64,000 nt of DNA, taken from positions 2,348,011-2,412,010 of the forward strand of contig NC_019977.1 in the NCBI RefSeq assembly GCF_000328665.1, written 5' to 3'. The position numbers and the translations under genes are program-made. Every line of letters begins with the position of its first letter. Position 1 is the stretch's first letter. The DNA is from Methanomethylovorans hollandica DSM 15978. Its GTDB lineage: Archaea > Halobacteriota > Methanosarcinia > Methanosarcinales > Methanosarcinaceae. The notes below the pieces were generated by a model. It was not told the DNA's origin and did not search any database. It was given only the letters and a program-made list of their open reading frames with translations. Positions 6,729-10,720 of the stretch are shown piece after piece.

Positions 6729-8585
6729 ATGAAGAGAGAGGGTCAAAGCATAACCCGTATTGCCAGTGATACGAGTGCTATAATTGATGGTGCTATATCT
6801 TCACGGATAAAGAGTGGCGATTATGCAGGAGTCCAGGTAATAATTTCTGAAGCGGTGGTTGCTGAGCTTGAAGCTCAGGCTAACCGTGGCCTTGAAATTG
6901 GTTTTAAAGGATTGGAAGAGCTGCAAGAATTGCGCAGACTTGCGACTCAGGGAATTATAGAACTCGTTTTTGCCGGCAGGCGGCCAAATCTGGATGAAGT
7001 GAAACTTGCTGGCGGCGGGGAGATAGATGCACTAATTAGAGAAGCAGCTCAGGAAAATAATGCTTTGTTCGTGACTGCTGACAGAGTACAGTCACAAGTT
7101 GCAATAGCAAAGGGATTAGAAGTTGATTTTATTGCTCCCCACTTTATTGAGCATCGTCCTCTTAAAATAGAACAGTTCTTCACAGAAGATACGATGTCAG
7201 TACACCTAAAAAATGGTGTCAGCCCAATGGCTAAGAGAGGAAGCATAGCTGCAGTGGAATTTGTAAAGATAAGGGAAGAAACATGCACTTATGGAGAACT
7301 TAAATTCATTTCAAGGGAACTCATTGAGCGGGTGCGCAGTGATCCTGCCTCCTTCATGGAACTGGATTTCAATGGGGCATCGGTGCTTCAGATAGGCAAC
7401 ATGCGCATAGCTATTGCCAATCCGCCATTCTCGGATGAGATAGAGATCACGGCTGTTAGGCCAGTGGCAAAAGTATCTCTTGACCAATACCGCCTGAGTA
7501 CAGTACTTAAGGAGCGTATAAAAGAACAGCGCGGAATTCTTATAGCCGGACCTCCGGGTGCTGGGAAGTCCACATTTGCTGCAGGTGTAGCCATATACCT
7601 GCATGAGATGGGGTACGTGGTAAAGACCATGGAAGCTCCGCGGGATCTGCAGGTACCCAAAGAGATCACACAATATGCTCCTCTGGATGGTAGCATGGAA
7701 AAAACGGCGGACATCCTCCTGCTGGTCAGACCTGACTATACAATATATGATGAGGTAAGAAAGACCAATGATTTCCATGTCTTTGCAGACATGCGGTTGG
7801 CGGGCGTGGGCATGATAGGTGTCGTACATGCCAACAGAGCCGTGGACGCAATACAAAGACTTATTGGGCGGGTGGAGCTGGGAGTCATACCCCAGGTAGT
7901 GGACACAGTGATCTTTGTCAACAAAGGCGAGATATCTAAAGTGCAGATACTGGAATTCACTGTGAAGGTCCCATCTGGAATGACAGAGGCTGACCTGGCA
8001 AGGCCTGTGATCATAGTAACTGATCTGGAAAGTGGCAGAACCGAGTATGAGATCTACACCTATGGAGACCAGGTAGTAGTGATGCCTGTTGGCCTTGAAG
8101 TTAAGAGACCTTCCTGGAAGCTCGCAGAAGGAGAAGTGAAAGAAGTAATAGAACGATATGCTACCGGACCTGTTCAGGTAGAAATGATCTCAGACCATAA
8201 AGCCTTCGTACATGTACTTGAAAATGACATGCCCAGAGTCATTGGAAAAGGTGGGAATGTTATCGATAATATCGAAAAAATACTAGGCATCCACATAGAC
8301 GTGCGCAAGTTCGAATCTGGAGAGGTGAAAGAAAAAACATATCAGAAAGAAAAAACTCTTCAAAAGGAGTTCCGTCCCATCATCGAGAAAACAAAAAAGC
8401 ATCTAATATTGAACATCTCTGGACTTGCGGCCCATGATGTCGAAGTCTACGCAGGAGATGAGTTCCTATTCAGTGCTACAGTAGGTCGTCATGGAGATAT
8501 AAAAGTAAGAGAGGATTCAGCAGTTGCAGACAGTATCCTTTCAGCAATAGAGGACGGAGAACTGGTCACAGTCAGGCCACTATAA
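6729..8585 (+). CDS. PIN-domain/PilT-like ATPase with C-terminal KH domain (PINc/VapC family ATPase)
   Basis: An archaeal conserved protein of 618 residues. An N-terminal PIN nuclease-like domain (acidic residues in SDTSAIIDG at about 13-21, plus GEIDALI and FVTADRVQ) covers about 10-140. A secretion-type (PilT/VirB11) ATPase follows, with Walker A AGPPGAGKST at about 276 and an aspartate-rich Walker B (RPDYTIYDEVR). A KH motif MPRVIGKGGNVIDNI at about 502-516 points to RNA binding. The order PIN-ATPase-KH is typical of this widespread but poorly characterised archaeal family; RNA processing or ribosome-linked quality control is an inference. It ends just before a strong hairpin at 8593. Confidence 0.9.
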   Translation: MKREGQSITRIASDTSAIIDGAISSRIKSGDYAGVQVIISEAVVAELEAQANRGLEIGFKGLEELQELRRLATQGIIELVFAGRRPNLDEVKLAGGGEIDALIREAAQENNALFVTADRVQSQVAIAKGLEVDFIAPHFIEHRPLKIEQFFTEDTMSVHLKNGVSPMAKRGSIAAVEFVKIREETCTYGELKFISRELIERVRSDPASFMELDFNGASVLQIGNMRIAIANPPFSDEIEITAVRPVAKVSLDQYRLSTVLKERIKEQRGILIAGPPGAGKSTFAAGVAIYLHEMGYVVKTMEAPRDLQVPKEITQYAPLDGSMEKTADILLLVRPDYTIYDEVRKTNDFHVFADMRLAGVGMIGVVHANRAVDAIQRLIGRVELGVIPQVVDTVIFVNKGEISKVQILEFTVKVPSGMTEADLARPVIIVTDLESGRTEYEIYTYGDQVVVMPVGLEVKRPSWKLAEGEVKEVIERYATGPVQVEMISDHKAFVHVLENDMPRVIGKGGNVIDNIEKILGIHIDVRKFESGEVKEKTYQKEKTLQKEFRPIIEKTKKHLILNISGLAAHDVEVYAGDEFLFSATVGRHGDIKVREDSAVADSILSAIEDGELVTVRPL

Positions 8586-8645: not shown

Positions 8646-8834
8646 CTATCTAATAAGATAATAAACGATAACAAAAATTAGAGTTGCAATAGCTACCAAA
8701 AACTTATTCAAGCTTTGTTCATGCCTTTCTCCTTCTGCGGCAGGATCATTATTGGTTTTTGCAAAGCCTACGCCGAGAACTAAACCAAGAACGATACCAA
8801 TGACAATGTTGTCCAGCATATCCCCTATGACCAT
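8646..8834 (-). CDS. Small membrane protein with glycine-rich helices, start uncertain
   Basis: The conserved part reads MVIGDMLDNIVIGIVLGLVLG followed, after a polar loop (NNDPAAEGERHEQSL), by a second membrane helix (FLVAIATLIFVIVYYLI). This resembles small two-helix membrane proteins with glycine-zipper segments. Coding-like sequence clearly extends upstream of the ATG at 8834 (a Lys/Tyr-containing head, then VLYLIGLLIG), but no good in-frame start with a ribosome binding site is seen before the frame enters the divergent metF-like gene. Either a non-canonical start is used or the 5' end carries an indel. Function unknown. Confidence 0.5.
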   Translation of the reverse strand: MVIGDMLDNIVIGIVLGLVLGVGFAKTNNDPAAEGERHEQSLNKFLVAIATLIFVIVYYLIR

Positions 8835-9030
8835 ACCTATAAGCAGACCTATTAAATAGAGAACGTTCTTTGCAACGTTACCATACTTTTTTGTCGCACC
8901 ATCATCCCCAGTGTTTTTACAGAATATTAGATAGAATTTGATTTGATGGCATAAAAACAGATTGATGATGATAAACAACAAGGATTTCTTTTCGATGAAT
9001 TTAAAAGTAAAAGCCGCGTATAGGTGCTCG

Positions 9031-9927
9031 ATGGCAGTCACTTTTAGAGAGAAGCTCCAATCACATAGATTCATTGTCACCACAGAGGTCACACCTCCAA
9101 AAGGTGTTGAAACTTCGTATTTCCTATCAGACGCAGAACAATTAAAGCAGTATGTGGATGCTTTCAACGTGACAGATAATCAAAAAGCTGTCATGCGCAT
9201 GAGTCCTCTGGCCGTTGGGAAGTTGTTAAAGGATGCAGGGCATGAGACCATCTTACAGATTACGTGCAGGGACCGCAATAGACTGGCCCTGCAATCTGAT
9301 CTGCTTGGGGCCTGGGCTTTGGGAATACGGAACATATGTGTTATGACAGGGGACCATACCACCAAAGGTGATCACCCTGATACAAAACCAGTATATGACC
9401 TTGATTCAGTGCAACTACTGGACACAATTAGAAAACTGAAACTGGGATATGATCTTTCTGGGAACAGCTTGGAAAGATCTCCTGATTTTGTAGTGGGGGC
9501 CGTCTCAAATACAGATCCCACACAACCCATGCAGCATATCAAACTTCGAAAGAAGGTGAGTATGGGTGTGGATTTTATTCAGACCCAGGCAGTGTACGAT
9601 ACCAAAGAATTTGCATGTTTTCTGGAAAAGGTAAAGGACATCGATGTGCCTATAATAGCCGGTATCATACCTCTCAGATCTGCAAAGATGGCAAGGTTCA
9701 TGAACGAAAACATTCCGGGAATAAGGGTGCCAGATGAACTCATCACCAGAATGGAATATGCCAAAGAACCTGTACAGGAAGGACTCGAGATAGCTGTGCA
9801 GTCGATCCGTGAACTCAAAAACATGTGCAGAGGCATACATTTGATGCCTGTGGGACAACATACCCATAGCAAAGAAATATTAAAGATGGCAGGATTGGCA
9901 GAAGGAAGAACACAAAATGAGCAATAG
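9031..9927 (+). CDS. MetF-like methylenetetrahydrofolate reductase family protein
   Basis: A TIM-barrel flavoprotein-like enzyme of 298 residues, matching 5,10-methylenetetrahydrofolate reductase. Family hallmarks are FIVTTEVTPPKG near the N-terminus (catalytic Glu region), NVTDNQ, ALGIRNICVMTGD, and the FIQTQAVYD strand. The ATG at 9031 follows AGGTG; upstream Met codons lack this. In methanogens with folate it could make methyl-H4folate; a pterin-specific role is also possible. The 3' end overlaps the cofE-like gene by 11 bases, so the two are translationally coupled and likely functionally linked. No zinc-finger MetV partner is seen. Confidence 0.85.
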   Translation: MAVTFREKLQSHRFIVTTEVTPPKGVETSYFLSDAEQLKQYVDAFNVTDNQKAVMRMSPLAVGKLLKDAGHETILQITCRDRNRLALQSDLLGAWALGIRNICVMTGDHTTKGDHPDTKPVYDLDSVQLLDTIRKLKLGYDLSGNSLERSPDFVVGAVSNTDPTQPMQHIKLRKKVSMGVDFIQTQAVYDTKEFACFLEKVKDIDVPIIAGIIPLRSAKMARFMNENIPGIRVPDELITRMEYAKEPVQEGLEIAVQSIRELKNMCRGIHLMPVGQHTHSKEILKMAGLAEGRTQNEQ

Positions 9928-10720
9928 CGAACATGAGTATTCATGCGACAACACACTAATGCAGTTGCTAGGCATCAGGACACCCATCATAAGGCAGGGT
10001 GATGATTTGGTCCAGATACTTCTGGAATCCCTTGAAAAACAGGGAACAAAACTGCAGAATGGTGATATTATAGTGCTGGCAGAATCTGCTGTAGCTACCT
10101 CTGAAGGAAGAGTTGTAAGGTTAGCTGACATTGAACCCACTGAAGAAGCCTGCGAACTTGCCCTGAATTACCAGCTCGATCCAAGAGAAATGCAGCTGAT
10201 AATAGAGGAATGTGATGAGATATTCGGAGGAGTTCCCGGAGCAGCATTGACCATTACCAGAGGAACACTTTCACCGAATGCCGGGATAGATAGCTCGAAT
10301 GCCCCGGATGGTTGTGTAGTACTCCTGCCGGAAGACCCACAGAAAAGTGCGGCTTTCATCCGAAAAGGGCTTGAAAAAGCATTTTCATGCCACATAGGCG
10401 TCATCGTTGGCGACAGCCGCACCCAGCCATTAAGGCTTGGATGCGTAGGCATAGCTCTTGGAACTTCAGGCATAGAACCCGTGGAAGATGCAAGAGGGTC
10501 ACTTGATATATTTGGCAAGGAACTGAAGATAACTCGCAAAGCAGTGGCCGATAATATAGTATCTGCTGCACAGCTGGTGATGGGAGAAGCAGGAGAGAGT
10601 ATACCTGCGGTAATTATAAAGGGGGCGCCTGTGAAGATGATAGAAGGTTCTGTAGAGATGCCATTGTTCTCAAGGGAAGAATGCATGTATTACAGCAATA
10701 TAAACAAAAACAGAAAATGA
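9917..10720 (+). CDS. Coenzyme F420-0:L-glutamate ligase-like protein (CofE family)
   Basis: CofE adds gamma-linked glutamates to coenzyme F420-0 using GTP. The 267-residue protein shows GDIIVLAESAVATSEGR at about 54-70, the NAGIDSSNAPDG motif, a metal-binding aspartate in VIVGDSR, and MGEAGESIPAVIIKG near the end. The usual D(T/S)xGR segment reads DSRTQPLR, so a conserved basic residue is shifted or lost. This suggests a CofE paralogue with altered substrate rather than the housekeeping enzyme. It overlaps the metF-like gene upstream and is followed by an IS remnant. Family sure, substrate uncertain. Confidence 0.75.
   Translation: MSNSEHEYSCDNTLMQLLGIRTPIIRQGDDLVQILLESLEKQGTKLQNGDIIVLAESAVATSEGRVVRLADIEPTEEACELALNYQLDPREMQLIIEECDEIFGGVPGAALTITRGTLSPNAGIDSSNAPDGCVVLLPEDPQKSAAFIRKGLEKAFSCHIGVIVGDSRTQPLRLGCVGIALGTSGIEPVEDARGSLDIFGKELKITRKAVADNIVSAAQLVMGEAGESIPAVIIKGAPVKMIEGSVEMPLFSREECMYYSNINKNRK

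Follow-up and report, generated by a model that had tools for sequence, protein, structure and literature searches.

A divergent CofE paralog encoded beside metF in Methanomethylovorans hollandica is a candidate folate glutamate ligase in place of FolC

RESULTS

An overlapping metF-cofE2 pair and a second CofE in the same genome

The window, a 64,000-nucleotide stretch of the Methanomethylovorans hollandica DSM 15978 genome (NC_019977.1), carries on its forward strand two overlapping genes, the first for a predicted methylene-tetrahydrofolate reductase and the second for a member of the CofE family of glutamate ligases. The window copy of the latter is named CofE2, and the second copy in the genome CofE1. 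The features of the locus are as follows.

9031..9927, + strand: metF, predicted methylene-tetrahydrofolate reductase, 298 aa (PF02219, 133.7 bits; cut-off 24)
9901..9908, + strand: GAAGGAAG, putative Shine-Dalgarno-like sequence 5' of the cofE2 ATG, within metF
9917..9927, + strand: overlap of the metF 3' end and the cofE2 5' start, 11 nt, read from the sequence
9917..10720, + strand: cofE2, CofE-family glutamate ligase, proposed dihydrofolate/folylglutamate synthase, 267 aa (PF01996, 273.2 bits; cut-off 25)
10412..10435, + strand: codons for DSRTQPLR, CofE2 residues 166-173 (positions 150-157 of A. fulgidus CofE, Af-CofE), replacing D(T/S)xGR

The first-pass annotation had pointed to the 11-base overlap and to a divergent ligase with DSRTQPLR in place of the expected motif, and both descriptions hold, with the two open reading frames on the same strand. 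A search of the host genome (two contigs, 2.714 Mb) returned the window metF as the only MTHFR match; its start agrees with those of its relatives, and its product scores 88.8 on the NCBIfam MTHFR equivalog TIGR00676, below the cut-off of 293.7. Preceding metF are a divergent ORF (8646-9122, -) with no Pfam or NCBIfam match and a gene for a 618-aa PIN-ATPase-KH protein (6729-8585, +; PRK13764, 844.9 bits), which reaches only 413 bits on the PINA Holliday-junction model against a cut-off of 800.

Two PF01996 genes were recovered by profile search of the host genome. CofE1, located at G000:C2:2070575-2071204(-), has a DTNGRA-type motif and scores above both CofE equivalog cut-offs (346.5 versus 274 and 302.5 versus 180.65). 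CofE2 passes TIGR01916 F420_cofE (216.7 versus 180.65) and falls short of PRK13293 (215.2 versus 274). The housekeeping cofE that the first-pass annotation proposed to look for thus exists; its suggestion of a substrate other than F420 would have fallen had the window gene been the sole cofE of its genome, with normal F420 activity, and the gene is not the sole cofE. Among the matches listed in a search of 149 genomes of the order, identities to CofE2 were cleanly bimodal (at least 48% for its orthologs versus at most 40% for CofE1), so that the gene pair and the motif observation are not chance.

Folate genes surround cofE2, and its contact with metF is recent

In relatives, the cluster runs purN-glyA-folD-folP-metV-metF-thiC2-cofE2, thiC2 not always being present; the identity of metV is also backed by PF12225 in L265. 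This is the H4F cluster of Methanosarcinaceae (metF, metV, folP, folD, glyA, purN) described in PMC9012536, a report in whose available text CofE2 does not appear and the word CofE has no occurrence. In the host genome, purN-glyA-folD-folP-metV lies at about C2:2285136-2290781, some 70 kb from metF-cofE2, so that direct contact between the latter two genes must have arisen by rearrangement. Two further loci (L155/L241) carry glyA-folD-folP-cofE2 without metF.

The nearest named relatives of the window are the Methanomethylovorans contigs L165 and L167. An 11-nt metF/cofE2 overlap is also found in L165 and in L063, another member of the genus, while L065 has an overlap of 8 nt and L064 a 4-nt gap instead. 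The cofE2 of L065 (1334-2002, -; genome G148, same genus) is truncated to 222 aa and matches residues 1-177 only of the window CofE2, for which decay and assembly error are both possible.

In a scan of named contigs, there were 383 pattern matches, and of the 331 relatives recovered, the best 80, selected by CofE2, were used. Their titles name Methanosarcinales (Methanomethylovorans, Methanolobus, Methanococcoides, Methanosarcina, ANME-2, Methanoperedens, and others), with a few titled only Euryarchaeota or uncultured archaea. Seven folate genes were scored; within the stretch covered, 59 of these 80 loci had one or more of them and 21 had none, in some cases because the contig is short and in others despite full flanks. 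The gene directly upstream of cofE2 in the 76 of the best 80 loci with a usable cofE2 ORF was thiC2 in 45, metF in 7, folP in 1, and another gene in 22, with one contig edge. A third set of 42 loci from the order, biased because many were fetched by their metF, included 29 with a folate gene and 13 lacking one.

Outside the order, 23 CofE2 loci from 12 families were collected, one of them (L280) reached via its folP. All 23 contained another folate gene, and folP lay directly upstream on the same strand in 19; in L280, cofE2 comes immediately before folP and overlaps it. The arrangement glyA-folD-folP-cofE2 recurs in L268, L269, L270, and L272, and L265 carries cofE2-folP-purH-purN-5-FTHF cyclo-ligase-folD-glyA. 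Outside the order, folP is thus a commoner partner of cofE2 than metF, and the overlap with metF is a recent, genus-level feature. In three loci (L257, L258, and L259), cofE2 lies near folD/glyA or purH, with no folP in the locus and none over the cut-off genome-wide, which possibly reflects folate salvage.

The idea that the 11-nt overlap marks an ancient metF-cofE2 coupling was accordingly rejected, relatives mostly carrying thiC2 or other sequence between the two genes. The first-pass annotation had taken the overlap to imply coupling of reductase and ligase: the overlap is real and the two genes may be translationally coupled in the window, but as an argument about function it is weak, since it results from a genus-level rearrangement and MetF uses folate without being part of glutamylation. 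Likewise, of the conservation of neighborhood that it proposed to examine, the folate gene context recurs, and the overlap with metF is a feature at the level of the genus.

The thiC2 gene is a third ThiC-family paralog that recurs, in several families, between or beside the folate genes (L066 7200-8468, L266 8897-10144, L267 9309-10529, L150 5252-6490) and keeps the C-terminal CMCGxxC cysteines. In the three genomes read, the L066 copy was 39-44% identical to two other ThiC copies. It is missing in G000 and G088 and located elsewhere in G111 and G148.

CofE2 and FolC exclude each other across the phylum

CofE2 was called in the order survey at a best E below 1e-70. Across the 149 genomes, PF01996 was found in 146, MetF in 126, and CofE2 in 126; by tallies read by eye, with three MetF-negative genomes deduced from their absence in the MetF list, CofE2 and MetF occurred together in 121 and were both missing in 18, leaving five genomes with CofE2 only (G013, G023, G028, G068, G093) and five with MetF only (G010, G038, G066, G070, G101). 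No FolC (TIGR01499) passed the cut-off in any of the 149 genomes, and the host genome gave no match to this model.

The phylum survey covered 392 genomes, each at least 80% complete, with CofE2 called by a profile from 15 CofE2 sequences at an E of at most 1e-65, a threshold of our own setting. CofE2 was present in 200 genomes, DHPS over the cut-off in 298, and FolC in 94. FolC and CofE2 were never found together (0/392), and exactly one of them was present in 291 of the 298 DHPS-positive genomes. CofE2 occurred in 197/204 genomes with DHPS and no FolC, in 0/94 with both DHPS and FolC, and in 3/94 without DHPS (G253, G354, and G288). These counts carry shared ancestry, which the Fisher value of 7e-70 ignores, so that it is not readable as a probability; the lists were compiled by hand, and their totals equal the FolC and DHPS tallies.

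Seven genomes had DHPS with neither ligase (G010, G335, G265, G303, G312, G332, and G341). A hidden FolC was sought among the proteins near folP in G312, G303, G341, and G332, and none was found there; the neighbors were DUF1464, GHMP kinase, NYN, TatD, DHDPS, and ferredoxin-like proteins. Two of these loci (L276 and L277, from G312 and G303; genus g46, family f9) have folP near a GHMP kinase-like gene and DUF1464. A scan of viral contigs returned no relatives. Plasmid CofE matches were also considered as CofE2 and rejected for two of the three inspected: the bacterial cofE genes of L146 and L147 adjoin cofC, cofD, and cofH and are F420 ligases by context, and L145 has only npdG annotated alongside.

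Judging from their sizes and model matches, the FolC genomes appear to be mostly large and halophile-like and to encode FolC and DHPS within one long frame. Both models (TIGR01499 and TIGR01496) fall within a single frame of at least 800 aa in many genomes. This haloarchaeal FolC-FolP fusion would perform the same predicted reaction as CofE2, alongside DHPS, but belongs to a different protein family and never occurs in the same genome. The FolC family is of the Mur-ligase type. In H4F-using methanogens, methanotrophic ANME archaea, and their relatives, DHPS is present and FolC is not, so that no gene named for the folate glutamate-adding step was found; the clade annotated as a second CofE most likely fills this gap across the phylum.

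Two of the DHPS-negative genomes bear on an alternative in which CofE2 is only a folylpolyglutamate synthase, extending the tail of made or salvaged folate while another enzyme adds the first glutamate: in L257 and L258 (G253 and G354), cofE2 accompanies folD and glyA in the absence of folP and of any DHPS over the cut-off. We consider this improbable, as the absence of FolC would leave the first addition without a known enzyme, and the folP-cofE2 adjacency in 19/23 loci outside the order points to dihydropteroate as the substrate.

As a candidate pterin-linked glutamate ligase of methanogens whose gene adjoins that of a pterin-binding enzyme, CofE2 might instead add the extra glutamate of tetrahydrosarcinapterin or tatiopterin, a tetrahydromethanopterin derivative. 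This is very unlikely: MptN, an ATP-grasp ligase, is the enzyme assigned to this glutamate addition, and family f3 lacked both MetF and CofE2 in 17/17 genomes sampled in the order search. Moreover, the cluster is that of H4F users, the M. barkeri enzymes being H4F-specific according to the available text of PMC9012536.

CofE2 forms a separate clade that has lost the Gly-Arg segment facing the F420 ring

At the positions equivalent to Af-CofE 150-155, the motif was DSRTQP in 59/59 distinct CofE2 sequences from the order (leaving out L051, a 129-aa fragment) and DTNGRA in 16/16 CofE1. A wider set comprised 42 DSR-type sequences (DSR with T, A, or I as the next residue) and 32 GR-type sequences (29 archaeal and 3 bacterial); Gly-Arg at 153-154 was present in 32/32 of the latter and 0/42 of the former, the D(T/S)xGR segment of CofE being absent from CofE2. 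According to the part of the report by Bashiri and colleagues that was available (PMC10861534), the F420 ring in Af-CofE has G153-C155 at its front face and is also contacted by F92 and R234. F92 and R234 were discarded as clean markers of F420 binding, since true CofE proteins of the wider set vary there, and the GR segment is the only discriminating F420 contact among those compared. Residues common to at least 95% of both groups include D109, S111, N112, D150, G159, D181, and E208. With the catalytic residues kept, CofE2 has probably retained the ligase chemistry and changed the ring site.

In a tree that omits motif columns 149-158, 42/42 DSR sequences were separated from the rest by a branch supported at 100/98 and recovered in 100% of 200 bootstrap trees, the exact places of L280 and L147 being unsure because of long branches. 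An AlphaFold2 model of CofE2 built from 15 sequences had a mean pLDDT of 80.3 and a pTM of 0.80, and a Foldseek search matched Af-CofE only among solved structures at an E below 0.001 (best match 2phn, E 9.3e-23, TM about 0.77-0.82); pLDDT drops below 50 in the motif loop (residues 170-176), which leaves the model silent on the substrate site. CofE2 therefore shares with A. fulgidus CofE (2G9I/2PHN/7ULD) the fold, PF01996, about 30% identity, and conserved catalytic residues, but differs in the F420-ring-contacting GR segment, its separate clade, and its folate context.

Least probable of all is that the long F420 tails of Methanosarcina-type methanogens, with four to five glutamates, are made by CofE2. 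For this reading speak CofE family membership, the passed TIGR01916 cut-off, and the longer F420 tails of Methanosarcina; against it stand the replacement of the Gly-Arg segment in 42/42 sequences, a distribution that follows DHPS and not F420 and that excludes FolC, and the loci read, in which no cof gene was noticed beside cofE2, unlike the bacterial cofE of L146 and L147 with cofC, cofD, and cofH.

DISCUSSION

Taken on its sequence and context, CofE2 is quite probably the archaeal replacement of FolC, a GTP-dependent dihydrofolate synthase and perhaps a folylglutamate synthase too. The first-pass suggestion of folate rather than F420 as the substrate is supported by five lines, namely, the second CofE, the folate gene context, the absence of FolC, its mutual exclusion with CofE2 across the phylum, and the altered F420-ring segment. 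Counted against this reading are the passed TIGR01916 cut-off, the missed TIGR04132 cut-off (see below), the 7/204 and 3 exceptions in distribution, and the 21/80 loci without scored folate genes.

In the proposed pathway, FolP would yield 7,8-dihydropteroate, whose carboxylate CofE2 would phosphorylate with GTP and two divalent metals, as does Af-CofE; the nucleotide and the order of steps follow CofE precedent. CofE2 would then join L-glutamate to the activated dihydropteroate to give dihydrofolate and may append further gamma-linked glutamates. The resulting methylene-H4F would be used by MetF, encoded just upstream of the window cofE2, and the F420 tail would be made by CofE1. Buchenau and Thauer reportedly found in 2004 that M. 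barkeri requires folic acid or p-aminobenzoate; folate would then be built from p-aminobenzoate, and a dihydrofolate synthase would be needed.

The closest functional parallel is found in chlamydiae. According to the available part of PMC1971073, they lack folC, a COG1478 gene lies in a cluster with folate genes, and an E. coli folC mutant is complemented by CT611; COG1478 is likewise listed as CofE versus CT611 in the available part of PMC5041015. Like chlamydial FolC2 (CT611), CofE2 is a CofE-family protein whose gene neighbors folate genes in a folC-lacking lineage, but it is archaeal, shares the cell with a genuine CofE, and scores under the TIGR04132 cut-off. This model, for a putative folate gamma-glutamate ligase, gave 101-121 bits for 7 CofE2, the window included, and 45-95 bits for 4 CofE (one CofE1, three bacterial); as the window protein reaches 114.2 against a cut-off of 350, membership is not claimed. 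The mark by which FolC2 is recognized, clustering with folate genes in a FolC-lacking genome, is found for CofE2, and by analogy we make the limited claim that CofE2 may work like FolC2 and not like a canonical CofE.

If so, a mislabeled gene is present in roughly half of the 392 genomes sampled, and the F420 annotations need to be split, for which a simple motif (DSR versus GR) would serve. The folate assignment of a COG1478-type protein was already made for CT611 (PMC1971073 and PMC5041015, as far as their available text goes). In the available text of the literature searched, no archaeal CofE paralog assigned to folate was found, and novelty is provisional to that extent.

It is conceivable, if unlikely, that the non-halophilic archaea of the phylum have their own H4F assembly line, with FolP and CofE2 as the last two steps and thiC2, where present, supplying the aromatic moiety or some other portion of the cofactor. 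A search of 40 genomes of the family detected no thiC2 in genera g7 and g8, which we take to be Methanosarcina-like, and this would explain why Methanosarcina needs p-aminobenzoate.

A C-terminal cytidine/deoxycytidylate deaminase domain is fused to CofE2 in family f6, giving proteins of about 385-400 aa encoded beside folP (L260 5892-7091, L261 5043-6230, L262 6413-7600, L263 6015-7181, L264 5712-6866, and L287 5769-6929), and PF00383 was found in the fusions of L260 and L263.
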